Source: Limonium bicolor (Eukaryota; Streptophyta; Magnoliopsida; Caryophyllales; Plumbaginaceae). From it: a stretch of 64,000 nt of DNA. The stretch covers positions 95,701,298-95,765,297 of the forward strand of contig CM041783.1 of NCBI GenBank assembly GCA_023374045.1, read 5' to 3'. This document shows, piece after piece, positions 1 through 63,625 of this stretch; within the stretch, counting starts at the first letter, position 1, and each line of letters opens with the position of its first letter. The position numbers and the translations under genes are program-made. Under the pieces are notes generated by a model. The model ran no database searches. It was not told the origin of the DNA and worked only from the letters and a program-made list of their open reading frames with translations.

Positions 1-139
1 TCCAAGACTTCCGGGATTTTCAGGAACTAGGGTTCCTAGGGTTCCTCGGATTTCCGGGACTTTCAATTTCAGCAATTAGGGTTTCTAGTTTCCGGGACTT
101 CCGGGACATTAGGGTTGCTTTCTAACTTGGGGTATTTCA
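1..139 (-). repeat. Family A LTR 1, truncated by window edge
   Basis: This is the 5' end (element sense) of an LTR whose remainder lies left of the window. It matches the corresponding parts of the LTRs ending at 4,368, 8,621, 12,900 and 23,035, including the short CCGGGACTT repeats. It ends exactly next to the polypurine tract at 140-152. Confidence 0.9.
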
Positions 140-371
140 TTCTCCCCTCCTTAAACACAGCTTCGTCCCCGAAGCTTAAGCTATCACAGAAACCACACAA
201 CATTTACCTATAACACACAAGTTCTTCTTACACCATAAAATTACATTATCACATAAAATAATGATTCCTAATAACTTAACCTAAAACATGCTTCCAAGAT
301 GCTCAAACATATCAAAGCACATATTATCAAGAAATCATCAAACCATTAATTTCTATTCCAATTTTATCTTA

Positions 372-384
372 TTCTCCCCTCCTT
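372..384 (-). promoter_or_regulatory. Internal polypurine tract (copy 1)
   Basis: Element-sense AAGGAGGGGAGAA repeats the terminal polypurine tract at 140-152, some 230 bases away, and lies directly after the gag stop. Equivalent tracts are at 4,601-4,613, 8,856-8,868 and, split by element E, 13,136-13,140 plus 19,065-19,076. It could be a second plus-strand priming site or the relic of an older 3' end. Confidence 0.6.
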
Positions 385-417
385 AAAAAACTTTCTCCTA
401 AAACTTGATAACTAACC

Positions 418-1367
418 TCAACCGAAGTGACTTCCTGGATCCCGTGATGATTCCAAAGTACCTTTACCATTTCCAGTGTCTTTCCTCTGGTTATGGGTCC
501 ATGACGCTTCCGCTGCGCCACTCTGATTTGCATTTCTACCGTTCTCACCTCCATTCTTCTTTCTTTTCATGCATTCATAGGCTCTATGGCATAAGATACC
601 ACAATTATAACATCTTACTGGCCTCCCTTCACAGTCTTCCCCCGGATGATTTCTTTCGCACTGCTTACAGAAATGATGCCTGGCCCTTTTATCCCCAAGC
701 ATTTTACTTCCTGTTTGGTTTCCATTGTACTTTGTCCTCTTTTCTAAATCTCCTCCCTCGCTTGACTCAAATTTCCTCTTCTGGCCCGTCTGTGCTTCCT
801 TCCTTCTTTGTTGTATATGATAGAGATTTGCTGTCCTACTGTACGTCTCTTGTAAAGTAGCGACTAAAACAACACTTAATGCCTCTTGTAAACTCCAGTT
901 TAAGCCTCCAATGAAACATTGAACCTTGGCAGCCTCATCAGACACCATGTTTGATGCAAACCTTGCTAGTTCTATGTACTTGGAATGGTAAGTCTTCACA
1001 TCATCTTGTAGTTGCTTCAGCTCAGTAAGCTCGTGGTATTTCTGCATGCGAACATGCTCCGGATATAATCTTCTTCTCATGGCAACCTTGAGAACTCCCC
1101 ATCCAAAGTCAGGTTCTCCTTGTAAATTTTCTTGTTCTGCAGTCCACCACAGGTCAGCACCCTTGAAATAATAACAACTCCACTTACCCGCTTCTCTTCA
1201 GGACAATCAGTGATGTCGAATATCTTGTCAAACTCTCTAATCCAGACCTCCAAAATTACAGGGTCTTCCACACCGGAAAAGGTACTTGGTTTCATCGCGG
1301 CAATCCTTCTGGAGAAGTCCTTGGGAATCTCTGCTCTTTCCACTTGATTTTCTAAAATCTTACCCAT
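418..1367 (-). pseudogene. gag (family A copy 1), frameshifted
   Basis: Degenerate copy of the 317-residue Gag described for 8,903-9,856. The start ATG at 1,367 is kept. Length is 950 nt against 954 in the intact copy: three bases are missing in frame near 1,155 and one base is missing near 1,170, so the frame breaks after residue ~65. Everything from the MRRRLYP segment to the stop is open. Both zinc-knuckle motifs are intact here (CX2CX3HX4C and CX2CX4HX4C), unlike in copies 3 and 4. The lesion is a single-base deletion between otherwise near-identical copies, so assembly error cannot be excluded. Confidence 0.85.
489..527 (-). other. Initiator tRNA-Met 5'-part-like segment inside gag (copy 1)
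   Basis: On the element strand this begins ATCAGAGTGGCGCAGCGGAA and runs on through GCGT, three differing bases, and CCCATAACC. Against the plant initiator tRNA-Met sequence as I know it, 36 of 39 positions agree, including acceptor 5' strand, D arm and the CAT anticodon with its loop. It is read in gag as residues NQSGAAEASWTHN. The match stops after the anticodon loop, so no complete tRNA can form and this is not a tRNA gene. Confidence 0.85.
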
Positions 1368-1554
1368 GCTAAGGGCTAGATCCCTTAGGGTTTCAAGCTG
1401 GCCCCTATCGGCGTCCCTTCCTGGATGTTCACCATTCTACACACATATATTCATTAGTCACAAAATCATAAACAATCAAACATTCATACACAAGCATTCA
1501 CACACAAATATTCAGACAATGATCACCTATCCTTTCCACGATCTATAACCTATT

Positions 1555-1566
1555 GCTCTGATACCA
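1555..1566 (-). promoter_or_regulatory. Primer binding site, tRNA-iMet (A copy 1)
   Basis: Element-sense TGGTATCAGAGC is complementary to the 3' end of initiator tRNA-Met including CCA. It lies one base inside the end of the LTR at 1,568; this copy has lost two bases of the usual TTG spacer. Confidence 0.9.
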
Positions 1567-1567
1567 A

Positions 1568-4368
1568 TGTAACACCCCACTTTTCCTAGCTCTTTTTTTT
1601 GCCTTTCACTGTGAACAATACAGCGGAAGACTTACAACTCTAGCCGGGGTGCTACCGCCACACCCACACTCACTGTGGATGCTAAGGCTTATTACCACCA
1701 CTATACCAAATTAATTAAACTCTTAAACTTTATATATATTCAAAATCTAACCACAACATGGAACCTCTTGTACTTCCAAAATTATCTTCTAAACTTAAAC
1801 CTTTACTTACTAATACCAACTAACAACTTCTTTCAAAACTAAATATCAACTTACACTTCCTTTACTAGTTTACAAAGTGTTTAAACATACTACCACTGAA
1901 CTTAATGGAAATACTACATCCTCTTCTAGCTTCAGTAGCCCCATTTAGCTCCTCTCTCTCATGCAACTTCTTAACTGTACCTGTGGTTAGTCATGCAATC
2001 ACAGAAAATACCACAGGGCACATGCTAGAAAACAAACGTCAGCAAAGCTGAGTAATTCTTGCCACCACATGTAAAATACATTTAGTATAAGATAACACTT
2101 TGAAATAACATAATAACACAGAAGTAATCAAACAAGTCAGGAACATCTAACCACATTACCAAAATACAAACCAATACCAACCAAGATAATATCACCAAAC
2201 TTTAGTCCATTTTAGTCCTTCCACCAATCCTCGGGCACACTAGTCTTTCGACAAAGAGCACTAAGGCTCTTGGCCCCTTCGACAATTATTTCTTCTACCT
2301 CACCCCATGCCCTTAAGTGTGCACACCCCCTATAGATCATCAGCCTATAGAGTATATCATGATGGCTTGCCCACAATTCATTGGTAGTGGGAAAAATCAG
2401 TGTCGGGCCTCTAAGGGCTCATAAACTTGTGTAACCAGATTCCAAAGTGAGTACCAAGTGATTAAGCAGTCCAACCACGTCCTTAACCTTAATAAAACAT
2501 CCACACAACATACCAAGAAGAATCAAAGCACATAGCAACCATTAACCATATCAAAACCAAGTTAGAACACATCATAAACACCTTGAAAATACCTTAAGAA
2601 CGACCCCTTGTTTAAGGTCTTACCTCTGAATAAATTCGACTCACCTTTTACCCAGTTCAATATCACATCTTATGAGTATTTGGTCACGAAACCAAAGCAA
2701 GAAACCTTCGAACGCCCCTTCATAATTTGAATAGAGTCCAGAAAGGTCTTAAAGCACGTTTATAGGTCTTGTCTTACCTTTAACTCATAAAAACTCAACT
2801 GGAGAACTTACCCACAAACTGGAATATTGTAGAGGGATAAGTACTAATCCGTTTTAGCTAGAAACCCATGGATGTTATTCACGAAAATCACACACCAAGC
2901 TGGCTTCAAGTTAAAGCACCAAATCACAGAATCCGACATCAAACGTTCAAGGTTTGTTCACCTAGTTTCCCAGAACTTCTCGGGGCTTATTATACACAAA
3001 ATCACCATTGAAGAGTCTACTTTCACACCATGAAAAGAGTTGAGAGATACACAGTATAATCTTCCGAATATAGAACAAACAGAAAGCGTCGCCCGAATTG
3101 ACACATGAGGAAAGATTGGTGGAGCACGGGAACTACCTAGCTCCTTCTTGCCATATCTCTCACCAGCAGTTAGGTACTAAAGTAGCTACGTGGAGATACC
3201 AAGAACTCCAAGAGATTCGCTTGGGAAGGCCTCCAAATCCTCTCACCTTTACACGGATTCTGCACTGGGAAGGTAATTGGCTTCTGTTTTGGTGTTCTTG
3301 GGTGGCTGGCTTGATTTACCTATAATTCGTGCTTCTATGGGTTTAATGAGGTAGGAGAAGGATTGTGTTGTGTGTTGGAAGGCTTGGTCGTGGCTCTTCT
3401 TATAGGCAGAAGAAGAGATCTTAAGGCAAAAAAGGCTTATAAGCTTGACACCTCATGAAACACCTATCTACCCTGTAACCATTGATTGAATAAGTAGTGT
3501 GAACACATCTAAGGGCTAAGAATAGGTAGGGAAGGTCGTGGCTGCTGTAGGAATCATCATGAGCTGAAGAGAAATCATGGCATGTAATAAATGACATTAA
3601 ATGTGGCGGTGACCTTAAGGCATGGTTTGCTTTGCCTTGGCCGTTTTTGGCTTGTCTTGGTTTGGTAATATGTCATACTAATGTGTAAGTGTAAATGCAA
3701 GTGAATAAAATTCAGGTTGTAACTCATCTAAGGCATCACTTATGGGTACAAAAAAAAGGTTTTAAGAGCAAATAAGGAAAAAGTAATTGTACTTTGACTT
3801 AAAATCTAACCAATGACCTTATGACACCTCCTAATAACTTGCTTCACCGCCCTAATAGCTTGCTAGCTTGTGTGGATATCATATAACCAATCATTTTACG
3901 ACACATTGTGCTTCTCGACACCTCGTGCTTCCCGACACCTCGTGCTTAGGTTAACTAGGTTGCCACCTCATGCTTCCTACCAACTAGGTCACCACCTCGC
4001 GATTACCTCAACTAGGTATCCACCTCATGCTTACCAAGCTGTTTAAGGAGTTTCCTAAGGAGAAAAGTGATTATGACGGAATAAAACTAGCTATGGGGGC
4101 ATTGCCGGCTACTAGAATTTTACCGAGTCTTGTAGAATTTTCTAAGGCTTCCCATCTCTGGTTAGTAGGGTTTTCTAGGGTCCTATTAAGTTTTCAAGGC
4201 TTTCCTAAAGTTTTTAAGGTCATTTATGGAGTTTCCAAGACTTCCGGGATTTTCAGGAACTAGGGTTCCTCGGATTTCCGGGACTTTCGGGAATTTCAGC
4301 AATTAGGGTTTCTAGCGTTTCCGGGACTTCCGGGACATTAGGGTTGCTTTCTAACTTGGGGTATTTCA
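1568..4368 (-). repeat. Family A LTR 2
   Basis: 2,801 bp, running from GTTACA at 1,568 to TGAAATACCCC at 4,368 on the element strand. A run of T follows the LTR end near 1,595-1,605, and a U5 box CTTCCGCTG is at 1,621-1,629. Short imperfect repeats ending in CACCTCRTGCTT lie at about 3,905-4,035, and CCGGGACTT repeats occupy 4,225-4,345. No coding sequence is supported; the small open frames in it are not conserved between LTR copies. Confidence 0.92.
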
Positions 4369-4646
4369 TTCTCCCCTCCTTAAACAAAGCTTCGTCCCCG
4401 AAGCTTAAGCTATCACAGAAACCACACAACATTTACCTATAACACACAAGTTCTTCTTACACCATAAAATTACATTATCACATAAAATAATGATTCCTAA
4501 TAACTTAACTAAAACATGCTTCCAAGATTCTCAAACAATCAAAGCACATATTATCAAGAAATCATCAAACCATTAATTTCTATTCCAATTTTATCTTATG
4601 CTCTCCCCTCCTTAAAAAACTTTCTCCTGAAACTAGATAACTAACC

Positions 4647-5595
4647 TCAACCGAAGTGACTTCCTAGATCCCGTGATGATTCCAAAGTACCTTTACCATT
4701 TCCAGTGTCTTTCCTCTGGTTATGGGTCCATGACGCTTCCGCTGCGCCACTCTGATTTGCATTTCTACCGTCTCACCTCCATTCTTCTTTCTTTTCATGC
4801 ATTCATAGGCTCTATGGCATAAGATACCACAATTACAACATCTTACTGGCCTCCCTTCACAGTCTTTCCCCGGATGATTTCTTTCGCACTGCTTTCAGAA
4901 ATGATGCCTGGCCCTTTTATCCCCAAGCATTTTACTTCCTGTTTGGTTTCCATTGTACTTCGTCCTCTTTTAAATCTCCTCCCTCGCTTGACTCAAATTT
5001 CCTCTTCTGGCCCGTCTGTGCTTCCTTCCTTCTTTGTTGTATACGATAGAGATTTGCTGCCTACTGTACGCCTCTTGTAAAGTAGCCACTAAAACAACAC
5101 TTAATGCCTCTTGTAAACTCCAGTTTAAGCCTCCAATGAAACATTGAACCTTGGCAGCCTCATCAGACACCATGTTTGATGCAAACCTTGCTAGTTCTAT
5201 GTACTTGGAATGGTAAGTCTTCACATCATCTTGTAGTTGCTTCAGCTCAGTAAGCTCGTGGTATTTCTGCATGCGAACATGCTCCGGATATAATCTTCTT
5301 CTCATGGCAACCTTGAGAACTCCCCATCCAAAGTCAGGTTCTCCTTGTAAATTTTCTTGTTCTGCAGTCCACCACAGGTCAGCCTCACCCTTGAAATAAT
5401 AACAACTCCACTTACCCGCTTCTCTTCAGGACTATCAGTGATGTCGAATATCTTGTCAAACTCTCTAATCCAGACCTCCAAAATTACAGGGTCTTCCACA
5501 CCGGAAAAGGTACTTGGTTTCATCGCGGCAATCCTTCTGGAGAAGTCCTTGGGAATCTCTGCTCTTTCCACTTGATTTTCTAAAATCTTACCCAT
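4647..5595 (-). pseudogene. gag (family A copy 2), several frameshifts
   Basis: 949 nt against 954 in the intact copy. The ATG at 5,595 is present. Bases are missing at about 5,400 (one), 5,060 (one), 4,970 (two) and 4,770 (one), breaking the frame several times. The missing base near 5,400 is shared with copy 1. The rest of the sequence is almost unchanged from copy 3, so the defects are nearly all short deletions rather than substitutions. Confidence 0.85.
4718..4756 (-). other. Initiator tRNA-Met 5'-part-like segment inside gag (copy 2)
   Basis: Identical over 39 bases to the segment at 489-527, although the surrounding gag frame is broken in this copy. Confidence 0.85.
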
Positions 5596-5782
5596 GCTAA
5601 GGGCTAGATCCCTTAGGGTTTCAAGCTGGCCCCTATCGGCGTCCCTTCCTGGATGTTCACCATTCTACACACATATATTCATTAGTCACAAAATCATAAA
5701 CAATCAAACATTCATACACAAGCATTCACACACAAATATTCAGACAATGATCACCTATCCTTTCCACGATCTATAACCTATT

Positions 5783-5794
5783 GCTCTGATACCA
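5783..5794 (-). promoter_or_regulatory. Primer binding site, tRNA-iMet (A copy 2)
   Basis: TGGTATCAGAGC on the element strand, separated from the LTR end at 5,798 by TTG. Confidence 0.92.
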
Positions 5795-5797
5795 CAA

Positions 5798-8621
5798 TGT
5801 AACACCCCACTTTTCCTAGCTCTTTTTTTTTGCCTTTCACTGTGAACAATACAGCGGAAGACTTACAACTCTAGCCGGGGTGCTACCGCCACACCCACAC
5901 TCACTGTGGATGCTAAGGCTTATTACCACCACTATACCAAATTAATTAAACTCTTAAACTTTATATATTTCAAAATCTAACCACAACATGGAACCTCTTG
6001 TACTTCCAAAATTATCTTCTAAACTTAAACCTTTACTTACTAATACCAACTAACAACTTCTTTCAAAACTAAATATCAACTTACACTTCCTTTACTAGTT
6101 TACAAAGTGTTTAAACATACTACCACTGAACTTAATGGAAATACTACATCCTCTTCTAGCTTCAGTATCGAGCCCCCTTTTGCTCCTCTCTCTCATGCAA
6201 CTTCTTAACTGTACCTGTGGTTAGACATGCAATCACATAGAAAATACCACAGGGCACATGCTAGAAAACAAACGTCAGCAAAGCTGAGTAATTCTTGCCA
6301 CCACATGTAAAATACATTTAGTATAAGATAACACTTTGAAATAACATAATAACACAGAAGTAATCAAACAAGTCAGGAACATCTAACCACATTACCAAAA
6401 TACAAACCGAATACCAACCAAGATAATATCACCAAACTTTAGTCCATTTTAGTCCTTCCACCAATCCTCGGGCACACGGTCTTTCGACAAAGAGCACTAA
6501 GGCTCTTGGCCCTTCGACAATTATTTCTTCTACCTCACCCCATGTCCTTAAGTGTGCACACCCCCTATATCATCAGCCTATAGAGTATATCATGATGGCT
6601 TGCCCACAATTCATTGGTAGTGGGAAAAATCAGTGTCGGGCCTCTAAGGGCTCATAAACTTGTGTAACCAGATTCCAAAGTGAGTACCAAGTGATTAAGC
6701 AGTCCAACCACGTCCTTAACCAATAAAACATCCACACAACATACCAAGAAGAATCAAAGCACATAGAACCATTAACCATATCAAAACCAAGTTAGAACAC
6801 ATCATAAACACCTTGAAAATACCTTAAGAACGACCCCTTGTTTAAGGTCTTACCTCTGAATAAATGCGACCCACCTTTTAACCAGTTCAATATCTACATC
6901 TTATGAGTATTTGGTCACGATTCCAAAGCAAGAAACTTCGAACGCCCCTTCATAATTTGAATAGAGACCAGAAAGGTCTTAAAGCACGTTTTTAGGTCTT
7001 GTCTTACCTTTAACTCATAAAAACTCAACTGGAGAACTTACCCACAAACTGGAATATTGTAGAGGGATAAGTACTAATCCGTTTTAGCTAGAAACCCATG
7101 GATGTTATTCACGAAAATCACACACCAAGCTGGCTTCAAGTTAAAGCACCAAACTCACAGAATCCGACATCAAACGTTCAAGGTTTGTTCACCTAGTTTC
7201 CCAGAACTTATCGGGGCTTATTATACACCAAAATCACCATTGAAGAGTCTACTTTCACACCATGAAAAGAGTTGGAGAGATACGCAATATAAACTTCCGA
7301 ATATAGAACAAACAGAAAGCGTCGCCCGAATTGACACATGAGGAAAGATTGGTGGAGCACGGGAACTGCCTAGCTCCTTCTTGCCATATCTCCTCACCAG
7401 CAGTTAGGTACGTAAAGTAGCTACATGGAGATACCAAGAACTCCAAGAGATTCGCTTGGGAAGGCCTCCAAATCCTCTCACCTTTACACGGATTCTGCAC
7501 TGGGAAGGTAATTGGCTTCTGTTTTGGTGTTCTTGGGTAGCTGGCTTGATTTACCATATAATTCGTGCTTCTATGGGTTTAATGAGGTAGGAGAAGGATT
7601 GTGTTGTGTGTTGGAAGGCTTGGTCGTGGCTCCATTCTTATAGGCAGAAGAAGAGATATCTTAAGGCAAAGGAAAGGCTTATAAGCTTGACACCTCATGA
7701 AACACCTCTACCCATGTAGCCATTGATGGAATAAGTAGTGTGAACACATCTAAGGGCTAAGAATAGGTAGGGAAGGTCGTGGCTGCTGTAGGAATCATCA
7801 TGAGCTGAAGAGAAATCATGGCATGTAATAAATGACATTAAATGTGGTCGGTGACCTTAAGGCATGGTTTAGCTTTGCCTTGGCCGTTTTTGGCTTGACT
7901 TGGTTTGGTAATATGTCATACTAATGTGTAAGTGTAAATGCAAGTGAATAAAATTCAGGTTGTAACTGATCTAAGGCATCACTTATGGGTACAAAAGGAA
8001 ATAAGGTTTAAGGGCAAATAAGGAACTAGTAATTGTACTTTGACTTAAAATCTAACCAATGACCTTATGACACCTCCTAATAGCTTGCTTAACCTCCCTA
8101 CGTGCTTGCTAGCTTGTGTGGATATCATATAACCAATCATTTTGCACACCTTGTGCTTCTCTACACTCGTGCTTCCCGACACCTCGTGCTTAGGTTAACT
8201 AGGTTGCCACCTCATGCTTCCTACCAACTAGGTCACCACCTCGTGATTACCTCAACTAGGTATCCACCTCATGCTTACCAAGCTGTTTAAGGAGTTTCCT
8301 AAGGAGAAAAGTGATTATGACGGAATAAAACTAGCTATGGGGGCATTTCGGCTACTAGAATTTTACCGGGTCTTGTAGAATTTTCTAAGGCTTCCCATCT
8401 CTGGTTAGTAGGGTTTTCTAGGGTCCTATTAAGTTTTCAAGGCTTTCCTAAAGTTTTTAAGGTCATTTATGGAGTTTCCAAGACTTCCGGGATTTTCAGG
8501 AACTAGGGTTCCTAGGGTTCCTCGGATTTCCGGGACTTTTGGGAATTTCAGGAATTAGGGTTTCTAGTGTTTCCGGGACTTCCGAGACATTAGGGTTGCT
8601 TTCTAACTTGGGGTATTACCA
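5798..8621 (-). repeat. Family A LTR 3
   Basis: 2,824 bp. It is very close to LTR 4 (for example both share the CGAGCCCCC variant near 6,168 and 10,432) and slightly less like LTRs 2 and 5. U5 box at 5,852-5,859. The terminal bases at 8,613-8,621 carry a small change next to the polypurine tract. No coding content. Confidence 0.92.
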
Positions 8622-8902
8622 TTCTCCCCTCCTTAAACAAAGCTTCGTCCCCGAAGCTTAAGCTATCACAGAAACCACACAACATTTACCTATAACACAC
8701 AAGTTCTTCTTACACCATAAAATTACATTATCACATAAAATAATGATTCCTAATAACTTAACCTAAAACATGCTTCCAAGATTCTCAAACATATCAAAGC
8801 ACATATTATCAAGAAATCATCAAACCATTAATTTCTATTCCAATTTTATCTTATGCTCTCCCCTCCTTAAAAAACATTTCTCCTGAAACTTGATAACTAA
8901 CC

Positions 8903-9856
8903 TCAACCGAAGTGACTTCCTGGATCCCGTGATGATTCCAAAGTACCTTTACCATTTCCAGTGTCTTTCCTCTGGTTATGGGTCCATGACGCTTCCGCTG
9001 CGCCACTCTGATTTGCATTTCTACCGCTCTCACCTCCATTCTTCTTTCTTTTCATGCATTCATAGGCTCTATGGCATAAGATACCACAATTATAACATCT
9101 TACTGGCCTCCCTTCACAGTCTTTCCCTGGTTGATTTCTTTCGCACTGCTTATAGAAATGATGCCTGGCCCTTTTATCCCCAAGCATTTTACTTCCTGTT
9201 TGGTTTCCATTGTACTTCGTCCTCTTTTCTAAATCTCCTCCCTCGCTTGACTCAAATTTCCTCTTCTGGCCCGTCTGTGCTTCCTTCCTTCTTTGTTGTA
9301 TACGATAGAGATTTGCTGCCCTACTGTACGCCTCTTGTAAAGTAGCCACTAAAACAACACTTAATGCCTCTTGTAAACTCCAGTTTAAGCCTCCAATGAA
9401 ACATTGAACCTTGGCAGCCTCATCAGACACCATGTTTGATGCAAACCTTGCTAGTTCTATGTACTTGGAATGGTAAGTCTTCACATCATCTTGTAGTTGC
9501 TTCAGCTCAGTAAGCTCGTGGTATTTCTGCATGCGAACATGCTCCGGATATAATCTTCTTCTCATGGCAACCTTGAGAACTCCCCATCCAAAGTCAGGTT
9601 CTCCTTGTAAATTTTCTTGTTCTGCAGTCCACCACAGGTCAGCCTCACCCTTGAAATAATTAACAACTCCACTTACCCGCTTCTCTTCAGGACAATCAGT
9701 GATGTCGAATATCTTGTCAAACTCTCTAATCCAGACCTCCAAAATTACAGGGTCTTCCACACCGGAAAAGGTACTTGGTTTCATCGCGGCAATCCTTCTG
9801 GAGAAGTCCTTGGGAATCTCTGCTCTTTCCACTTGATTTTCTAAAATCTTACCCAT
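8903..9856 (-). CDS. gag: Retrotransposon Gag protein (family A copy 3), full frame
   Basis: 317 residues. Gag forms the cytoplasmic virus-like particle and binds element RNA. A retrotransposon Gag domain occupies roughly residues 28-180: KPSTFSG at 26-32, W42, and the GEADLWW motif at 70-76 typical of plant Ty3/Gypsy Gag. A basic linker (198-231) leads to two zinc knuckles. The second is intact, CX2CX4HX4C at 254-267. The first (235-247) has lost its first Cys (Tyr) and its His (Gln), both kept in copy 1. The start ATG follows the primer site by about 190 bases and matches copies 1 and 2. The C-terminal stretch NQSGAAEASW is encoded by the tRNA-like segment. No protease or pol frame follows; the stop is just before a purine tract. 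Expression is unknown. Confidence 0.88.
   Translation of the reverse strand: MGKILENQVERAEIPKDFSRRIAAMKPSTFSGVEDPVILEVWIREFDKIFDITDCPEEKRVSGVVNYFKGEADLWWTAEQENLQGEPDFGWGVLKVAMRRRLYPEHVRMQKYHELTELKQLQDDVKTYHSKYIELARFASNMVSDEAAKVQCFIGGLNWSLQEALSVVLVATLQEAYSRAANLYRIQQRRKEAQTGQKRKFESSEGGDLEKRTKYNGNQTGSKMLGDKRARHHFYKQCERNQPGKDCEGRPVRCYNCGILCHRAYECMKRKKNGGESGRNANQSGAAEASWTHNQRKDTGNGKGTLESSRDPGSHFG
8974..9012 (-). other. Initiator tRNA-Met 5'-part-like segment inside gag (copy 3)
   Basis: Same 39 bases as 489-527. Here it is translated within an intact Gag frame, so the DNA is constrained as protein and possibly as RNA. Confidence 0.86.
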
Positions 9857-10044
9857 GCTAAGGGCTAGATCCCTTAGGGTTTCAAGCTGGCCCCTATCGG
9901 CGTCCCTTCCTGGATGTTCACCATTCTACACACACTATATTCATTAGTCACAAAATCATAAACAATCAAACATTCATACACAAGCATTCACACACAAATA
10001 TTCAGACAATGATCACCTATCCTTTCCACGATCTATAACCTATT

Positions 10045-10056
10045 GCTCTGATACCA
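10045..10056 (-). promoter_or_regulatory. Primer binding site, tRNA-iMet (A copy 3)
   Basis: TGGTATCAGAGC on the element strand with the TTG spacer to the LTR end at 10,060. Confidence 0.92.
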
Positions 10057-10059
10057 CAA

Positions 10060-12900
10060 TGTAACACCCCACTTTTCCTAGCTCTTTTTTTTGCCTTTCA
10101 CTGTGAACAATACAGCGGAAGACTTACAACTCTAGCCGGGGTGCTACCGCCACACCCACACTCACTGTGGATGCTAAGGCTTATTACCACCACGATACCA
10201 AATTAATTAAACTCTTAAACTTTATATATATTCAAAATCTAACCACAACATGGAACCTCTTGTACTTCCAAAATTATCTTCTAAACATTAAAACCTTTAC
10301 TTACTAATACCAACTAACAACTTCTTTCAAAACTAAATATCAACTTACACTTCCTTTACTAGTTTACAAAGTGTTTAAACATACTACCACTGAACTTAAT
10401 GGAAATACTACATCCTCTTCTAGCTTCAGTATCGAGCCCCCTTTTGCTCCTCTCTCTCATGCAACTTCTTAACCTGTACCTGTGGTTAGACATGCAATCA
10501 CATAGAAAATACCACAGGGCACATGCTAGAAAACAAACGTCAGCAAAGCTGAGTAATTCTTGCCACCACATGTAAAATACATTTAGTATAAGATAACACT
10601 TTGAAATAACATAATAACACAGAAGTAATCAAACAAGTCAGGAACAATCTAACCACATTACCAAAATACAAACCGAATACCAACCAAGATAATATCACCA
10701 AACTTTAGTCCATTTTAGTCCTTCCACCAATCCTCGGGCACACCGGCCTTTCGACAAAGAGCACTAAGGCTCTTGGACCCTTCGACAATTATTTCTTCCA
10801 CCTCACCCCATGTCCTTAAGTGTGCACACCCCCTATAGATCATCAGCCTATAGAGTATATCATGATGGCTTGCCCACAATTCATTGGTAGTGGGAAAAAT
10901 CAGTGTCGGGCCTCTAAGGGCTCATAAACTTGTGTAACCAGGATCCAAAGTGAGTACCAAGTGATTAAGCAGTCCAACCACGTCCTTAACCTCAATAAAA
11001 CATCCACACAACATACCAAGAAGAATCAAAGCACATAGAAACCATTAACCATATCAAAACCAAGTTAGAACACATCATAAACACCTTGAAAATACCTTAA
11101 GAACGACCCCTTGTTTAAGGTCTTACCTCTGAATAAATGCGACCCACCTTTTAACCAGTTCAATATCTACATCTTATGAGTATTTGGTCACGATTCCAAA
11201 GCAAGAAACCTTCGAACGCCCCTTCATAATTTGAATAGAGACCAGAAAGGTCTTAAAGCACGTTTTTAGGTCTTGTCTTACCTTTAACTCATAAAAACTC
11301 AACTGGAGAACTTACCCACAAACTGGAATATTGTAGAGGGATAAGTACTAATCCGTTTTAGCTAGAAACCCATGGATGTTATTCACGAAAATCACACACC
11401 AAGCTGGCTTCAAGTTAAAGCACCAAACTCACAGAATCCGACATCAAACGTTCAAGGTTTGTTCACCTAGTTTCCCAGAACTTATCGGGGCTTATTATAC
11501 ACCAAAATCACCATTGAAGAGTCTACTTTCACACCATGAAAAGAGTTGGAGGAGATACACAGTATAATCTTCCGAATATAGAACAAACAGAAAGCGTCGC
11601 CCGAATTGACACATGAGGAAAGATTGGTGGAGCACGGGAACTGCCTAGCTCCTTCTTGCCATATCTCCTCACCAGCAGTTAGGTACGTAAAGTAGCTACA
11701 TGGAGATACCAAGAACTCCAAGAGATTCGCTTGGGAAGGCCTCCAAATCCTCTCACCTTTACACGGATTCTGCACTGGGAAGGTAATTGGCTTCTGTTTT
11801 GGTGTTCTTGGGTAGCTGGCTTGATTTACCATATAATTCGTTCTTCTATGGGTTTAATGAGGTAGGAGAAGGATTGTCTTGTGTGTTGGAAGGCTTGGTC
11901 GTGGCTCCATTCTTATAGGCAGAAGAAGAGATATCTTAAGGCAAAGGAAAGGCTTATAAGCTTGACACCTCATGAAACACCTATCTACCCATGTAGCCAT
12001 TGATTGAATAAGTAGTGTGAACACATCTAAGGGCTAAGAATAGGTAGGGAAGGTCGTGGCTGCTGTAGGAATCATCATGAGCTGAAGAGAAATCATGGCA
12101 TGTAATAAATGACATTAAATGTGGTCGGTGACCTTAAGGCATGGTTTAGCTTTGCCTTGGCCGTTTTTGGCTTGACTTGGTTTGGTAATATGTCATACTA
12201 ATGTGTAAGTGTAAATGCAAGTGAATAAAATTCAGGTTGTAACTCATCTAAGGCATCACTTATGGGTACAAAAGGAAATAAGGTTTAAGGGCAAATAAGG
12301 AACTAGTAATTGTACTTTGACTTAAAATCTAACCAATGACCTTATGACACCTCCTAATAGCTTGCTTAACCTCCCTACGTGCTTGCTAGCTTGTGTGGAT
12401 ATCATATAACCAATCATTTTGCAACACCTTGTGCTTCTCTACAGCTCGTGCTTCCCGACACCTCGTGCTTAGGTTAACTGGGTTGCCACCTCATGCTTCC
12501 TACCAACTAGGTCACCACCTCGCGGTTACCTCAACTAGGTATCCACCTCATGCTTACCAAGCTGTTTAAGGAGTTTCCTAAGGAGAAAAGTGATTATGAC
12601 GGAATAAAACTAGCTATGGGGGCATTTCCGGCTACTAGAATTTTACCGGGTCTTGTAGAATTTTCTAAGGCTTCCCATCTCTGGTTAGTAGGGTTTTCTA
12701 GGGTCCTATTAAGTTTTCAAGGCTTTCCTAAAGTTTTTAAGGTCATTTATGGAGTTTCCAAGACTTCCGGGATTTTCAGGAACTAGGGTTCCTAGGGTTC
12801 CTCGGATTTCCGGGACTTTCAAGAATTTCAGCAATTAGGGTTTCTAGCGTTTCCGGGACTTCCGGGACATTAGGGTTGCTTTCTAACTTGGGGTATTTCA
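10060..12900 (-). repeat. Family A LTR 4
   Basis: 2,841 bp, canonical ends, U5 box at 10,113-10,120. It closely matches LTR 3. No coding content. Confidence 0.92.
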
Positions 12901-13140
12901 TTCTCCCCTCCTTAAACAAAGCTTCGTCCCCGAAGCTTATGCTATCACAGAAACCACACAACATTTACCTATAACACACAAGTTCTTCTTACACCATAAA
13001 ATTACATTATCACATAAAATAATGATTCCTAATAACTTAACTTAAAACATGCTTCCAAGATTCTCAAACATATCAAAGCACATATTATCAATAAATCATC
13101 AAACCATTAATTTCTATTCCAATTTTATCTTATGCTCTCC
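12901..13140 (-). mobile_element. Family A internal region 4, 3' part
   Basis: Terminal purine tract at 12,901-12,913, then the spacer up to the internal purine tract, where element E has inserted after TCTCC (13,136-13,140). It continues at 19,065. Confidence 0.9.
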
Positions 13141-15579
13141 TGAAATACCCCTAAATTAATTTAAATTAATTTAGGGGATTTCTTTTATTAAACCTTTAAT
13201 AATACTATTAAATTTTTATTGGATTGCATATTAATTCTTCTATGGCCTTCTTCCTCTTATTCTTGGGGTTGTGCCTTTCTTTAGGGGTTTTCTTCTCTTT
13301 CCCTAATTATTCATTATTATAGTATTATGATATAATAATAATTTATAATTTCTCCTCTTGGGAAACTTATTAAACACTCCATATATATTATAATAGATTT
13401 TTGGGAAGTTGGAACATTGTTTTGAAATATACAGTCAATAGAAAAATTCTATAAACCTTAAAGCATATTAAAGCCTTGCTAGAGTTGACTTTTTAGAATG
13501 GTCAAACCAGGCCATGAAACCTATACCAATAAATAGGTTATGAAAAACCATGAAGATCGATAAAAAGAACGTCAAAAACGGATCATCCTAGCCAAAGTTA
13601 TGCTAGATTGAAGTTTTGAATCAAAATTTAAGAAGTGCCACGTGTCACTCTGTAAGGGGTCGCTCACACTTAGCCGATTTCTTCCCAGATTTTCGTAACC
13701 GAATTCCCTTGCTTAGCCCTAACTTTAGACGGCTATAACTTTTACATATCTGAATATTTTTCCATGCCGTCTTCACCACTCTCTTCTCCTACAATTCCTC
13801 TTTTCAACCATTACTCATACAAACCCTAGATCTATCTGAGTCAACCGGAAAATCGAGCCAAAGTAGCCACCTTGCGAGACTGTTTCCAGAATTCCAGAAT
13901 TTCCTTCGTTTTCAGGTAACTTGCGTCGATCATAACTTCTTCGTTACTCATCCAAATTCCATGTTCTTTAGCTCGTTTTAAAGAGCTCTAATTCCTCTAA
14001 AACTTTCGTGTTTATGCCCAAGTCCAATTCGTAACCAGTTGGGAGATATAGAGGCCTAAAGTTTCGGTCTTGCGAGCATATACCGAAACAGAGAGGTAAA
14101 CTCGTGTTTTGTGGCTTTGATTTCTTTCTGTGTGATGCGAGTTAGGATTAGTGCCTGCTATCATTGTGTAGGGCTATGTTTCTTCTTTCTAATGAGCCTA
14201 AGAACATGGCCTAATTCGATCTAGAACTTAACTTATAGATCTGCAAAGTGAGCTCCTCGAAAACATTCAAGTTCGAACTTTTCCAGATTTGCGAATTCGA
14301 AATCACTCAATTCGCACAACTCCTGTAAGTTTCCTTCAAATTCCTTCTACCATGCTAAACTATGTTACATTATCGGTCAAAAACACGTTTCAATTGTATC
14401 AATTACGCAATAGATTGAGTGAATTTGTAAGAATTGAATTCGGAAACCGTTTAGAACCCTAACATTCGAACTGAACTCGAATTCCATCGTATAGTGCATT
14501 ATAATTGGGGAAATTGGTATCATTAGAACCGTAATTGAATTTAGAAACCATAGAAACAATAATCACTCAATTTGGTTCTGTAGATTGGGAGATATCGTCG
14601 ATTTAGTACTCGACTTCGATTTTGAATTCGATGAAGAACTGGGGCTTCAGCATCCGTCCGATCTGGACTTAAGGAAATGGACGGCCAAGATTAGATCTGG
14701 TGGTTATAAGTTGTTTAAGTTCTATAAAAAAACTAGTAAATAGTCTTAACTTGTTGGGTTAATTTAAATATCTTCTATTTGACTTGAAATTTTAACCATG
14801 GATTCCTTATTTTATGTAGTTTATTTTGATGTAAATTATTATGGTTTTGGAGTTTTTAAACGTAATTTATGATTTTTACAAGTTACGGGTTTTCTGGAAT
14901 TATTTGGCTAAATTAAAAAGATATTTTTATGAAATAAAAATTTTATAATATGTCTAAAATGTTATAGTCACTGTATATTAAATTTGGGAATTTTTGGGCA
15001 ATGGTAAAGGGTTTTAAAAATTGTGTTTATGAGTTTTTCATAAGAATAACCTATAATGTAAGGTTTTTAATGTAATCAAAAATTAAAGTATGGTTTGTTA
15101 ATTAACTTTTAAGCTGGGGAAAATAAAGGGACCTAAATTAACATTTTATAACAGTAAGTTTATAAATGTTTTTGTATTAGCTTTTAAGAGAAATGAAATT
15201 ATTTACCTATATGTATTTTTACTCACTTAAGTAGGAACTTATATAAATTAAGGAATTCAATTATCCTACATTTTATTTACTATATTATATGGGAGTTAAC
15301 ATTTTAAATAAACTAAGGAACAAATATATATTTATATTATTTTTACGCATTTATAAAAGGGAATTAAGAAGTAACTTATAGAGAATCAAGGAATTTAACT
15401 AAACTACATTTTATTTATTATATATAATATGGAAGCTAATATGTTTAACTAAAACTAAGGGAAATACTTTATGTTATAAACCACAAATCAGTTTTGGATA
15501 TGTCTAAAAGATATTAGATATAATTAAATACAATAGAATTTCTTAAAGAGTGTTCTGGATAAATCTTAATATATGTAGG

Positions 15580-15587
<8 letters not shown>

Positions 15588-15610
<23 letters not shown>

Positions 15611-15668
15611 ATATAATACAATAAAAATAGATGAAGGAAATAACATTTCTTGTGAGAAATAAATGGAA

Positions 15669-15712
<44 letters not shown>
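15588..15712. repeat. Two (TA)n microsatellites in element E
   Basis: Alternating TA runs at about 15,588-15,616 and 15,671-15,710, separated by about 55 bases of AT-rich sequence. Confidence 0.9.
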
Positions 15713-17624
15713 AATAATAAATAAAGAATAAAATACCTTATAGAAAATATAATGTGAAGGAATTAATGAGTTAAACTAAACCTCTACATAATACTAATAA
15801 TAGAGTACTATATGAGGTGGTATTATTTTATGGTTATGAACTGAGTTTTTAGTTACCTTTGAATTTCTAGGATTTAGATTAACAGTATTAAAATACATGT
15901 ATATATTTAGTCAGTGACTACAATGTAAATCTATAATTGGGTTAAGAAATTAATAAGTTGAAGTTTAGGAATATTTGTAATTAGTTTACATAAAGTGTCA
16001 CAAATAGATCTTATTATATAATTAATAATAAAATGAATGAAATACTTTTACATTTAATGTTCATATTATATAAACAATAATAAAATAAATGAGTTACTTT
16101 TACATCTAAATGTGAAGAGGATAAATAAGTCTAGATTTAATTATTTCTTAATATTTATAGTATTGAGTAATAACTTAATATTTTAAGATAAAATCATTAA
16201 AAGGGATTATGATATAAAACTACATTAAACTATGATTAGGGGTTTAATCTAAATAATAATCCTTAAGTTTCTTACAACTAGTTAAGCCATATAAATACAT
16301 TAACACCAATATTCAGGATGTGAGTTTATAGTTAAGTAATGTATTTAGTAGTTAGATTTACTAAAAGGTTTATAAATAGAAATTAGATACTTAAAATCTT
16401 TAAACCTTTAATTAGATGAAACTGGGTTACGTAAGAGATTATATTGATTTACCTTTTTAACACTGGGAATATTAGTGCGTCATTTGAATATAGGGTATGG
16501 GGATTTTCAGAATGGGTTGTCTTATTACATAATTAACAATTTCACTTATGAATCAGAATTTAGTTCTTAGATAGACTTTACCTTATGTCGGGATATAATG
16601 TCCATCCTAAGATACAATAAAGGAAATTAATTTATTAAGTTATTCCTTTGAAACCTTGGTCTTGTAAGTAATATAAAATGTATTTAAGACATGGGTTTAT
16701 TTAAATTTAGTACAAAAGGATTATACGTACTCTATGGAGAGAATGTGTGTAAAAATTAAATACTTGGGAAATTAAAATGTAAGTAAGGATACATAAAAAG
16801 GGTTATCTTAAAACACCTTATTATATAGGTAATAATTAAGCGAATAATATACTTTGTGGATACTAAGTAAAAGAGTTGGAAGGGTTTGAGTTAATTAAAA
16901 TATAGTTGTCTCAGGATGAAGAGTAGTTGAACATCTTAAGACAAGGTAATTAAATGGTTATAATATTAAGTCATTCTAAAGTAAAGATAAAGTAATTGAG
17001 TCTAGTGGTTGTCTCTAAATTCTAAGATCAATGAGGTTGTAATGAAATGCATCTACGACACTATAATTCCAATATACAGGTTGTAGGTCTTAATTAAGTT
17101 AAGGGGAAAATTTAATCACAATGGATTATCTAGTAAATATTGATAAAATACCTAATCATTACCTTATGGAATAATAGTATAGTATTCTAGGATAAATCCA
17201 TCATAGGTTACAATATGATGACTGTCCTAAAGTAAGAATAAAGGTATTGAACTTAAGAGTTATTATTGAGATTCTAAGATTAATTGAGTAATGTAAAATA
17301 CACTAAGATATAAAGGTCTTAATGTGGGAATTACGGTTAAGTATTAGTAAAGTGGATAAGAGTGGAAAAATTAGCTAGTGTTAGAAGAATACATTCCTTC
17401 ATCTTACAACCTTGGGCTATACAACATTCTAAAACAAGTCAAAGGCTATACTTAACAATTAAGCGAAGGGCTTACAAGATGATCGAGGTTTGGAAATGAG
17501 AGTGAAGAATCTATTTAAGTTTAACTTAGGGTATGAGTTATTGATGATAGATTATCTTTAATATTCTTCAGAGTACTGTTGATTATTTACGCAAGTTGTC
17601 TAGAGTTGCTACAGCGTTATCCAG

Positions 17625-17730
17625 GTACGATTTCTCGTACTCAGATACTTTTGGTGACAAATTTTATGGAATGTTTTGTACGATTTCTCGTACTCAGCTT
17701 GTTGTGTTATGGACTTTATGGAATGTTTTG
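17625..17730 (+). repeat. Direct repeat with small hairpins in element E
   Basis: GTACGA, TTTC, TCGTAC, an inverted repeat, occurs at 17,625-17,640 and again at 17,678-17,693, each followed by TCAG. The phrase TTTATGGAATGTTTTG also occurs twice, ending near 17,678 and 17,730. Confidence 0.8.
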
Positions 17731-17870
17731 GAACACCAACTGATCTTGAATGGGTTTCAGAATGAGACTGTTGTGTGACTAACTGAGCTTGATGTGACTA
17801 ACTGAGCCTGTATGTGAAACTTCCTTGGTTATTGGTTCCTCCTATCTAGTTGTTTCACTAGATATTAACT

Positions 17871-17951
17871 GCCTAGGGTTTACGCTTCTGCACTCTGTAG
17901 GACTGAGTGTTTTGGTATTGCTCTGGTGCAGTTAATGATCTGGTGGGGTAA
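17871..17951 (+). repeat. Conserved GCACTCTGTA block, copy 1 in E
   Basis: Block of about 70 bases with TTTACGC, CTGCACTCTGTA, GACTGAGTGTTTTGGTATTG and a following GTGCAGTTAATGATC. A second copy lies 208 bases on, and relatives lie in the internal regions of B (34,741-34,814) and C (51,309-51,390). Function unknown. Confidence 0.8.
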
Positions 17952-18078
17952 CTAGGAATATAGGAAAGTATCTGGTATTGGTAAATTCTTCCTTTGGACT
18001 ATGGGTATTGTTTCATCCATGAGTCGAGTTTGATCAGCCTAATTGGGAATGGATTCTTTCTATTGGGTATTAATTGTT

Positions 18079-18150
18079 GAGGGTTTACGCCTCTGCACTC
18101 TGTAGGACTGAATGTTTTGGTATTGCTCTTGTGCAGTTAATAATCTAATG
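18079..18150 (+). repeat. Conserved GCACTCTGTA block, copy 2 in E
   Basis: Second copy of the block at 17,871-17,951, with a few substitutions (AATGTTTTGG for AGTGTTTTGG). Confidence 0.8.
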
Positions 18151-18244
18151 GGAATATGGGAAATGTTAATCTTGGTACTGAGTATGGATTATTTATACTA
18201 AGTGGTGCACACACTTTTCACCGATGACTGAGAACGGTCGGTGG

Positions 18245-18362
18245 CAGCGGAGGTCTGCTATACCTCGCCCTTTGTGGCAACTGACAGCGGAGGTCTGTTT
18301 ACCTCGCCCTTTATGGCAACTGACAGCGGAGGTCTGTTTACCTCGCCCTTGTGGCAACTGAC
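18245..18362 (+). repeat. Three ~39-bp repeats, each with a hairpin, in E
   Basis: Units start at 18,245, 18,284 and 18,324. Each reads CAGCGGAGGTCTG and so on to TGGCAACTGA. Within each unit GAGGT and ACCTC (after CTGTTT) can pair; the first unit has two extra bases in the loop. Confidence 0.85.
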
Positions 18363-19110
18363 TGGCGGTGGGGGCCATCTCTCCCAATTGGTTTATTCCA
18401 CTCTTGAGTATATTCTGTCTATGGGAATCATCTTCTGAAATGGTGGAGACATAAACTGTCTACCACGGGTTATGGATATTCATGTCACTCCTAGTCCTTT
18501 GTGGCTACTTAAGTCTTTCTCTTCTTAACCAGAATTGGTTCTAATATCAACAATGGGTGCTTACTAACTATGTGGTGTGACTACTTAAGTGGATGATTTG
18601 GTTTGGAAGTTCTTTATCTTTGTCTTGTTTTCCTTTCTCTTTAGCTTGATTGTTTTGAGGTGCTTTATCTCTGTTTTACTTTTAAGAGTTTGTTTTCATG
18701 TTACTGTTTATTTTGAAGAGTTATGTTTTATAAGTTTGTTTTTGGAGAATTGTACCAGTTCCATTCCAGGGAACTGACCCACCCCACTCTGGGTGGGCTG
18801 TTTGGTTTCATCTTGCAGGTACGAATTGATTTACAGGTGGCCACGAAGAGAATGAGTGTTTGGGATGGGACTAGGTTCTATGGAGAGTGAATGTGTTTTG
18901 GAATTGTTAGGTCTATGTTAAGTTTTTTCGAAGTTCAGACCGTAACTTAGTTAATTGTAATGGTTGTAATTGGTGAGGTTGGTACCGGGTGTTTGGAGCC
19001 CGATGGTCTGTAATCGCCTTAGAGTTTTATTTCCGCTGTATTTATGGTTAATAGGGGCGTTACATCTCCCCTCCTTAAAAAAACTTTCTCCTGAAACTTG
19101 ATAACCAACC

Positions 19111-20064
19111 TCAACCGAAGTGACTTCCTGGATCCCGTGATGATTCCAAAGTACCTTTACCATTTCCAGTGTCTTTCCTCTGGTTATGGGTCCATGACGC
19201 TTCCGCTGCGCCACTCTGATTTGCATTTCCACCGTTCTCATCTCCATTCTTCTTTCTTTTCCTGTATTCATAGGCTCTATGGCCTAAGATACCACAACTA
19301 TAACATCTTACTTGCCTCCCTTCACAGTCTTCCCCCGGATGATTTCTTTCACACTGCTTACAGAAATGATGCTTGGCCCTTTTATCCCCAAGCATTTTAC
19401 TTCCTGTTTGGTTTCCATTGTACTTCGTCCTCTTTTCTAAATCTCCTCCCTCGCTTGACTCAAATTTCCTCTTCTGGCCCGTCTGTGCTTCCTTCCTTCT
19501 TTGTTGTATACGATAGAGATTTGCTGCCCTACTGTACGCCTCTTGTAAAGAAGCCACTGAAACAACACTTAATGCCTCTTGTAAACTCCAGTTTAAGCCT
19601 CCAATGAAACGTTGAACCTTGGCAGCCTCATCTGGCACCATGTATGATGCAAACCTTGCTAGTTCAATGTATTTTGAATGGTAAGTCTTCACATCATCTT
19701 GTAGTTGCTTCAGCTTAGTAAACTCGTGGTATTTCTGCATGCGAACATGCTCCGGATATAATCTTCTTCTCATGGCAGCCTTGAGAACTCCCCATCCAAA
19801 GTCAGGTTCTCCTTGTAAATTTTCTTGTTCTACAGTCCACCACAGGTCAGCCTCACCCTTGAAATAATAAACAACTCCACTCACCCGCTTCTCTTCAGGA
19901 CAATCAGTGATGTCGAATATCTTGTCAAACTCTATAATCCAGACCTCCAGAATTACAGAGTCTTCCACACCGGAAAAGGTACTTTGTTTCATCGCGGCAA
20001 TCCTTCTGGAGAAGTCCTTGGGAATCTCTGCTCTTTCCACTTGATTTTCTAAAATCTTACCTAT
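19111..20064 (-). pseudogene. gag (family A copy 4), start codon lost
   Basis: 954 nt, exactly the length of the intact copy, and open throughout, but the initiator codon at 20,064-20,062 is ATA instead of ATG. The next in-frame ATG is well inside, so Gag would be truncated. The first zinc knuckle (CX2CX3HX4C) is intact. In the second the final Cys is Tyr, so zinc binding is likely lost. Changes here are mainly substitutions, as expected of an older copy. Confidence 0.85.
19182..19220 (-). other. Initiator tRNA-Met 5'-part-like segment inside gag (copy 4)
   Basis: Identical over 39 bases to the other three copies, even though this gag copy has accumulated many substitutions elsewhere. Confidence 0.85.
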
Positions 20065-20251: not shown

Positions 20252-20263
20252 GCTCTGATACCA
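20252..20263 (-). promoter_or_regulatory. Primer binding site, tRNA-iMet (A copy 4)
   Basis: TGGTATCAGAGC on the element strand with TTG spacer to the LTR end at 20,267. Confidence 0.92.
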
Positions 20264-23552: not shown

Positions 23553-23615
23553 AATAAAAAATTAAGGGAAAATTTAAGGAGTAAATAAAATAAAGTTGAT
23601 GTAACATGTAATATA

Positions 23616-23853
23616 CTCCCTCCGTCCCTAATTGACCTTCCTCTTCACTATTTGGGCTTGTCGTTTGACTTCAATATTTAACATGTAAGATAACATAATT
23701 TTATAAATCTAAGTATTGCAATGGAATCTATATGTGAAAAACTATATGTTGTACAACTTTATTTTATAAAATTATTTTATCTTATATGTTTAATATTGAG
23801 GTGGAAAAACGTGCCAAAAAGCAAACAAGAAGGTCAATTAGGGACGGAGGGAG
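23616..23853. mobile_element. Stowaway-type MITE
   Basis: 238 bp with terminal inverted repeats opening CTCCCTCCGTCCCTAATTGA and closing with its complement (GGGACGGAGGGAG), flanked by TA at 23,614-23,615 and 23,854-23,855. The terminus and the TA target duplication are those of Tc1/mariner-derived Stowaway elements. It has no coding capacity; it would depend on a transposase elsewhere. The inverted repeat extends inward (AATTGACCTTC and GAAGGTCAATT), giving a long hairpin. Confidence 0.93.
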
Positions 23854-34907: not shown

Positions 34908-34945
34908 GTGGGCAGTAACCCACAGGGCCCAGGATCGATATGTGG
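34908..34945 (+). other. Initiator tRNA-Met anticodon/T-arm-like segment (B)
   Basis: GTGGG, CAGTAA, CCCAC forms an anticodon-stem-like hairpin with the same stem as plant tRNA-iMet. The run from TAACCCACAGG through CCCAGGATCGA to TGG (34,916-34,945) agrees with the tRNA at 26 of 30 positions as I recall it. It is not followed by an acceptor strand. It lies about 300 bases before the 5'-part-like segment, the reverse of tRNA order. Confidence 0.7.
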
Positions 34946-35239: not shown

Positions 35240-35270
35240 ATCAGGTCACGCAGCAGAAGCTTGTGGACCG
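35240..35270 (+). other. Initiator tRNA-Met 5'-part-like segment (B)
   Basis: ATCAG, GTCACGCAGCAGAAGC, TTGTGG, CC in sense orientation: the most diverged of the family copies (one base missing in the acceptor strand, one in the D-stem region), but collinear with those in C and D. Confidence 0.7.
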
Positions 35271-35421: not shown

Positions 35422-35458
35422 GGTTACGCGGGCGTAACCCCTTTTAAGGGGGGTAGGG
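35422..35458 (+). other. Hairpin plus internal purine tract (B)
   Basis: Arms GGTTACG and CGTAACC with loop CGGG, followed by CCTTTTAAGG pairing and AAGGGGGGTAGGG, which resembles the terminal purine tract AAGGGGGGTAGA. Equivalent structures: C at 50,444-50,480 (minus) and D at 63,795-63,830, with compensated stem changes. Confidence 0.75.
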
Positions 35459-50724: not shown

Positions 50725-50760
50725 GTTAGGGCCCACTAGCTTCTGCTGCGCGACCCTGAT
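50725..50760 (-). other. Initiator tRNA-Met 5'-part-like segment (C)
   Basis: Element sense starts ATCAGGGTCGCGCAGCAGAA and runs through GC, TAGTGGGCCC and TAAC. Aligned to plant tRNA-iMet 1-38 it has four mismatches and two one-base gaps by eye. It keeps D-arm and anticodon-stem bases but has lost part of the CAT anticodon. Confidence 0.8.
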
Positions 50761-55581: not shown

Positions 55582-55601
55582 GCACTTGCCGTGGCAAGTG
55601 C
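55582..55601. other. Conserved hairpin GCACTTGCC (C)
   Basis: Same 9-bp arms as 32,813-32,832 with a different two-base gap. Confidence 0.75.
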
Positions 55602-63590: not shown

Positions 63591-63625
63591 ATCAGAGTCA
63601 CGCAGCAGAAGCGTGGTGGTCCCAT
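63591..63625 (+). other. Initiator tRNA-Met 5'-part-like segment (D)
   Basis: Starts ATCAGAGTCACGCAGCAGAA and continues GCGTGGTGG, T, CCCAT. It agrees with plant tRNA-iMet 1-35 at 31 of 35 positions as I recall the tRNA, ending in the anticodon CAT. The sequence then diverges, so it is not a tRNA gene. Confidence 0.82.

Follow-up and report, generated by a model that had tools for sequence, protein, structure and literature searches.

Why should a retrotransposon carry, inside its own gag gene, a sense copy of part of the tRNA that primes its reverse transcription? The question is raised by a stretch of 64,000 nucleotides from Limonium bicolor (the window, in full 64 kb), in which four related LTR elements, A1 to A4, hold the same 39 bases. 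The gag coding strand is the minus strand of the window, and the tract lies in sense with gag:

489..527, minus strand: tRNA-iMet nt 1-39, sense, copy A1; 36/39 to the host tRNA-iMet
4718..4756, minus strand: tRNA-iMet nt 1-39, sense, copy A2; 36/39
8974..9012, minus strand: tRNA-iMet nt 1-39, sense, copy A3; 36/39
19182..19220, minus strand: tRNA-iMet nt 1-39, sense, copy A4; 36/39

The original prediction, made from the letters of the window, was of 39 identical bases on the coding strand of four gag copies, and it proved exact at all four places. The sequence ATCAGAGTGGCGCAGCGGAA has four exact matches in the 64-kb window, against 0.00 in shuffles even at three mismatches. The tract aligns to tRNA-iMet with a score of 63, the maximum in 10 shuffled windows (one strand) being 27, and these controls rule out a chance match. 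The mismatches in the alignment are at nt 25, 26 and 30. The agreement of 36 of 39 positions with plant tRNA-iMet was likewise borne out, and the genome from which the window comes (2.92 Gb, 2686 contigs) contains this very tRNA: among the 40 of 184 candidates scored, 33 matched over 72 nt at 100% and 7 at 99%, and ARAGORN called tRNA-Met(CAT) for 8/8 host candidates tested. A genome-wide count of the first 22 bases of the tract, with tRNA genes among the places counted, gave 206, and the backward control gave 0. Within the window, ARAGORN found no tRNA genes and an Rfam search gave no tRNA match up to E 5; a viral collection gave no match to two patterns and no gag relatives.

It is true, as had been pointed out, that copy 4 keeps all 39 bases. 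However, this is uninformative, because the identity between copies 4 and 1 is 96.4%, and 240 of the 1168 39-column windows show no variation at all in the four A copies; we therefore rejected four-copy invariance as proof of selection. Beyond what had been noticed earlier, sense tRNA-iMet 5' pieces occur in three more elements of the window (B, C and E), which brings the window to seven PBS and seven such pieces.

The A elements have LTRs of ~2.8 kb (1568-4368 and its repeats) and an internal part of ~1.43 kb, in which a PBS for tRNA-iMet, gag, the tRNA tract, PPT1 and, in A1-A3, PPT2 precede the LTR:

10045..10056, minus strand: PBS of A3, TGGTATCAGAGC (A1 1555-1566, A2 5783-5794, A4 20252-20263)
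8903..9856, minus strand: gag ORF of A3, 317 aa, ending in an extension for which the tRNA tract and integrase tail code
8869..8973, minus strand: integrase 3' tail of A3, frame +1 to gag, between the tract and PPT1
8857..8868, minus strand: PPT1 of A3, internal polypurine tract (A1 373-384, A2 4602-4613, A4 19065-19076)
8623..8634, minus strand: PPT2 of A3, terminal polypurine tract before the LTR (A1 141-152, A2 4370-4381)

The element is thus primed by the very tRNA that the tract resembles, as had been proposed, and the sense copy indeed lies about 1 kb from the primer site (1,026-1,032 nt from the PBS). From the tract to PPT1 there are 104-105 nt, and from PPT1 to PPT2 220-222 nt in A1-A3. 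Positions 1-13140 form tandem LTR-internal-LTR units with LTRs in common, and a further A gag lies ~8 kb outside the window (C8:95693325). The 5.9 kb at 13141-19064, between TGTAACGCCCC and GGGGTATTTCA and directly after PPT1 of A4, look like a long insertion splitting one A element.

The gag ORF of A3 matches PF03732 (E 2.4e-10) and also PF19259, and the gag frames of A1 and A2 are broken. Gag alone among Pfam pol and gag domains was detected in the A copies. In a large protein set its only matches (E up to 0.001) were a pair of gags from Ipomoea nil, with identities of 39% and 42%; in one of these (P0001) a different sequence follows the zinc knuckle. Of pol, only a stretch behind the tract remains, which we take to be an integrase or chromodomain tail. 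That of A3 was likened by eye to VKILWDHHGIQEATWE and VKVLWTHHGEEEATWE of the gag-pol relatives L066 and L067, where the tail-like sequence precedes PPT1, close to the end of the pol region, and an equivalent stretch is present in A1, A2 and A4; the tail peptide gave no Pfam match above the cut-off. L067 also has two polypurine tracts, at 5425 and 5825.

To place the tract among related elements, the A gag was searched against its own genome, which gave 126 matches (125 of 67,348 candidates scored). The gag-only sample comprised 18 copies (L047-L064): the ten best matches, among them window copies A3 and A4 (L047 and L048), and eight from the matches reaching residue 316 or 317. Gag identity to the query spans 62-100% in this sample and is 62-73% in eight copies. 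The tract was present in 18/18, with scores of 25-35, although the choice of these copies is biased towards the tract because the query contains it. It spans exactly nt 1-39 in 16 of the 18, the others being L054 (nt 1-37) and L063 (nt 3-39). In one gag-only copy, L064, an in-frame stop interrupts the opening bases of the tract, and the linker is shortened.

Because the query includes the tract, 12 further matches that stopped earlier, at residue 230-309, and had frames under 355 aa were also examined as a less biased set. The tract was found in both gag-only copies in which its place was covered (L103 and L108). Five others (L105, L106, L107, L109 and L110) have protease-side sequence and no tract, four judged by motif and L106 by eye; in L102, L111, L112 and L113 the stretch starts behind the tract's place, with integrase tail or PPT after it. 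One match, L104, could be assigned to none of these classes. The first gag-pol set held 17 loci with open frames of 464-920 aa. Three gag-pol stretches of ~8 kb lack the tract (scores 9-11), and fourteen gag-protease junctions of 0.5 kb each, 13 with the protease motif, gave background only, so that the tract was found in 0/22 gag-pol loci (3 + 14 + 5). No gag-only copy without it was met among those examined. With gag ahead of the tract and the integrase tail behind it, the tRNA sequence occupies the place where the gag-pol relatives have protease, reverse transcriptase and most of integrase.

In all 18 gag-only tracts, nt 25 (C or T) and nt 30 differ from the tRNA, and nt 30 is A in the 12 tracts printed. 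From these common changes, we infer that a single capture lies behind the gag-only tracts.

The bases at the junction point to how such a capture could have come about. The sequence after the tract is KTLEMVKVLWNHHGIQEVTS in A, to be set beside EMVKILWDHHGIQEATWE in L066 and DLVKVLWTHHGEEEATWE in L067, and the integrase end GAAACC(A/C)GAGG of L066 and L067 aligns opposite ATAACCAGAGG of A. At the 3' junction the tRNA reads CATAACC then CACAGG, the element CATAACC then AGAGG, and pol GAAACC then AGAGG (L066) or CGAGG (L067); the four bases AACC are thus common to tRNA and pol, in 2/2 relatives with a readable integrase end. On the 5' side the tRNA starts with ATCA, and all three gag linkers compared (3/3) contain AATCA, those of L065, L066 and L067, whose gags are 60-66% alike; these linkers are repetitive and Asn-rich, and microhomology on this side can be called suggestive only. 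None of the loci examined proved to be a parent with exactly these breakpoints.

We suggest, with a probability of roughly 0.78, that the 39-base stretch is a sense tRNA copy made when reverse transcriptase switched onto the primer tRNA, deleting pol. That the tract is in gag-only elements and absent from gag-pol elements, and that AACC is common to tRNA and pol, make it most likely the template-switch scar of the pol-deleting event, and this origin is favoured by pol being missing with the tRNA at its junction. Minus-strand synthesis would have run from the 3' end into the integrase tail as far as AACC, and the nascent strand would have paired anew with the AACC at nt 36-39 of the tRNA. Copying of the tRNA, or of a 5' half of it, would then have gone on to the first base, after which synthesis could have landed on the Asn-rich gag linker at AATCA. 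Protease, reverse transcriptase and most of integrase would have been lost in that same switch, within one replication cycle, and the tract would then have been inherited as the tail of gag. Since pol loss at that place made the tract the gag tail, its overlap with gag is probably incidental. The original prediction had set primer copying aside on the ground that read-through would leave the tRNA antisense and next to the primer site. This holds for read-through at the PBS only, whereas a minus-strand switch onto the tRNA gives a sense copy anywhere. In a second step, of which we are less sure, the tRNA piece would have been kept as a cis-acting RNA signal, best supported in the LARD-like relatives described below, that would serve packaging or handling by the Gag and reverse transcriptase of a helper.

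One of these relatives, element B, holds a further piece of the same tRNA:

34908..34945, plus strand: tRNA-iMet piece, nt 26-64, found in B only and replacing lost sequence

B is without a stretch that is present in C and in 7/7 compared loci, and has tRNA nt 26-64 there instead, with alignable sequence flanking the piece on both sides (B against C and the seven loci); in this alignment L029 differs further left, where B has a second gap. The B-only piece was found in 0/38 other loci (30 places), with up to 6 mismatches in 26 allowed. By this alignment, element B is a fresh second case of tRNA filling lost sequence.

The chief alternative is that element RNA was selected from the start to imitate the primer tRNA, whether for packaging or annealing or to serve as a decoy. 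A comparison of synonymous sites had been proposed as its check, and the result went only partly its way. In a comparison of seven gag-only representatives, identity at third codon positions is 0.87 within the tract and averages 0.64 elsewhere. Of 279 non-overlapping windows only 2 match the tract's level, both of them from the integrase tail behind it, and in upstream gag 0/268 do so. In a smaller set of three families 13/279 windows reach the tract's third-position level, 2 of them in gag, and over all positions 35/1014 windows reach its identity. The integrase tail, having been joined in the same event as the tract, is the comparison of the same age; gag itself could predate the junction, if there was exchange of gag with gag-pol elements. 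Against the tail the tract is barely slower: the difference per site is 0.22 in the tail and 0.15 in the tract (p 0.076), and other sets give p 0.051 and 0.13, and 0.52 within the A group, where there is no excess. Selection in the gag-only elements is therefore not established, and a retained RNA-level role there would be only marginally supported.

A different picture emerges from B, C and E. LARDs are large non-coding LTR derivatives, and B and C fit this description, having long LTRs (~4.4 and ~4.2 kb) and a long internal region without coding capacity. These measurements come from B and C, E being cut by the end of the window. The longest sense stop-to-stop pieces are 64 and 72 aa. A Pfam search of eight peptides, which took five from B and C and also covered E, produced no match above a cut-off. 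The relevant features are:

35240..35269, plus strand: tRNA-iMet 5' piece, nt 1-32, sense, element B; homologous position in C and E
50725..50760, minus strand: tRNA-iMet 5' piece, nt 1-38, sense, element C
63591..63625, plus strand: tRNA-iMet 5' piece, nt 1-35, sense, element E
35424..35456, plus strand: hairpin1 and PPT1, downstream of the tRNA piece, element B
50444-50478, minus strand: the same, element C
63798-63830, plus strand: the same, element E

In all three, the tRNA piece lies ~155-250 nt upstream of the internal hairpin and PPT. B has two polypurine tracts, one internal (35442-35456) and one terminal (36871-36884). Element C (44834-60767) is apparently inserted inside E, with the PBS of E at 43706 and its tRNA piece at 63591; the two appear to belong together across the inserted element. 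The LARD-like PBS lies in or close to a hairpin, ATCAGAGCG..CGCTCTGAT (31867-31890 and 56547-56570; also L039, L041, L043, L044 and L046). We considered pairing of the tract with the hairpin arm CTCTGAT as a switch that opens the PBS, and rejected it as a general device because the A elements are without the hairpin. Weak Rfam matches to MIR6224 and MIR6440, under the curated cut-offs, at 23615-23854 and 46590-46698 are perhaps transposon-derived.

One LARD tract form has 8,088 exact copies in the genome (4,140 and 3,948 by strand), against a control of 0. In the first 30 of these a PPT lies 257-354 nt downstream in 26 and the exact hairpin in 24, and in eight 10-kb stretches a PBS stands 3.5-4.2 kb ahead of the tRNA piece in five. 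Over nt 23-32 the 30 loci have a mean identity of 0.81, with 0.62 upstream and 0.52 downstream; these bases lie outside the search pattern, which covers nt 1-22, including the changes at nt 9 and 17, and biases the sample by picking loci through the tract itself. The sample was therefore replaced by one picked by the hairpin alone, for which the first 20 of its 12,283 places were taken. A 5' half that is recognisable in full and beats shuffles by more than 2 is present in 4/20, while AGC-GTGGRCC (tRNA nt 20-32) occurs 167-337 nt upstream in 16/20, against 0.03 of 20 in shuffles. The core, nt 20-32, is in register in 17/20. Its 12-column window is 0.76 identical, the upstream mean being 0.36, and 0/362 other upstream windows match it (158 of 190 pairs, those less than 75% alike overall). 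This is strong evidence that the tRNA-derived core is under constraint in the LARD-like elements, and a retained RNA-level role is well supported there as a reading of these alignments. In C and in most loci listed, the LARD form does not show the nt 30 change of the A type, and it has changes of its own at nt 9 and 17. On these differences, it was probably captured separately from the gag-only one. Alternatively, both may go back to one older common capture.

How, then, does mimicry from the start fare? The part of the original prediction that stood is a real sense sequence of the primer tRNA, kept far beyond four copies. The slow third positions, the retention of the tract across gag-only families together with its absence from gag-pol relatives, and the conserved LARD-like core are all in its favour. 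However, the integrase tail of the same age is nearly as slow, and the tract is only half a tRNA, in which ARAGORN detects no tRNA. Furthermore, B, C and E all carry departures from the tRNA at nt 9 and 17, which break the Pol III box A, and in B and C a D-stem base is also lost (E keeps the D stem). Because of this damage to box A and the D stem, the tract, judged by its bases, is not preserved as a faithful tRNA mimic, and we regard selection for imitation from the outset as possible though doubtful.

A function in plus-strand synthesis fares worse. In minus-strand cDNA, a 5' tRNA half might pair with the tract's complement and prime synthesis just upstream of PPT1. The tract does lie 5' of an internal PPT in A, B, C and E and in 26/30 tract-sampled loci, and its 3' end is at the anticodon loop, where tRNA halves end. 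The half-tRNA of copia is 39 nt long. PMC5371799 provides precedents in the half-tRNA primer of copia and the anticodon-loop cleavage in Ty5. Nevertheless, B, C and E are mismatched to the tRNA, and PPT1 alone could suffice, so that such priming would seem quite improbable. We consider insertion of a tRNA-derived SINE, or of a piece of a tRNA gene, to be less probable still. Many SINE heads are derived from tRNA, and the A copies have an intact box A, but a SINE consists of a head with boxes A and B and then a body; box B is absent, as is a common body, since A, C and E have no common sequence behind the tract (by eye). The identical integrase-tail junction of the gag-only families and the microhomology at that junction also speak against an insertion. 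Finally, a Pol III promoter of the Helenus type is scarcely credible, for although A has box A (TGGCGCAGCGG), there is no box B, box A is altered in B, C and E, and the tract is internal, outside the LTR.

Returning to the template switch onto the primer tRNA, we tentatively offer a wider interpretation that we ourselves hold to be less than likely: that the non-autonomous elements here took sense pieces of the primer tRNA, probably at least twice, and kept them as a cis-acting ticket for the Gag and reverse transcriptase of a helper, with ticket gain and pol loss occurring in one template switch. If true, this would be a parasite of a parasite, stealing part of the primer tRNA as a passport. 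It bears on how non-autonomous LTR elements arise and are mobilised in trans. The birth of a gag-only lineage is readable here at the level of single bases, with a primer tRNA bridging the lost pol and pointing to the mechanism. Should the tract prove to be a functional signal, it would offer a handle of 12-39 bases on the packaging of non-coding and gag-only elements by a helper. Thousands of related elements in the genome have tRNA pieces of this kind, and we predict that one well-conserved core of these serves as a signal.

Several known systems resemble what we describe. TR-GAG elements are plant non-autonomous elements with LTRs and gag only, and A1-A4 are similar in having LTRs, PBS, PPT and gag and no pol but a tail; unlike TR-GAG, the pol-deletion junction of the A copies is filled by primer tRNA. 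Unlike known LARDs, B and C carry a conserved relic of the tRNA 5' half upstream of an internal hairpin and PPT. A tRNA piece at a TR-GAG pol deletion or inside a LARD was not mentioned in the titles and abstract openings searched, a scope that left subscription journals mostly outside. According to PMC5371799, primer tRNA-iMet makes a second contact near the 3' end of the element in Ty3, which has a bipartite PBS; the second site of Ty3 pairs with the tRNA, whereas the tract here is identical to it. The tRNA-like element of HIV-1 is described as genomic RNA that resembles the virus's own primer tRNA. However, it is reported to be adjacent to the PBS and bound by LysRS, while ours is a sequence copy 1 kb from the PBS.

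Helenus, as described in PMC10886601, is a non-autonomous LTR element with tRNA-derived sequence, as here. There the sequence lies in the LTR, has boxes A and B and was likely acquired via SINE insertion; our tract is internal, is half a tRNA and has no box B.

A further parallel, to a recombination scar in which sense tRNA stands in place of deleted element sequence, is with HIV, and such a replacement is seen in the gag-only elements and with the B-only piece. PMC12220202 describes, as work of the Berkhout laboratory, HIV variants in which a deleted hairpin was replaced by tRNA sequence, either tRNA-Asp (63 nt) or tRNA-Glu (65 nt), through tRNA-mediated non-homologous recombination in which tRNA copied by reverse transcriptase fills the deletion. 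As described there, that was a laboratory event, later lost, and involved tRNA-Asp and tRNA-Glu, whereas in Limonium bicolor the sequence is 39 nt of the element's own primer tRNA and has been inherited by several families.
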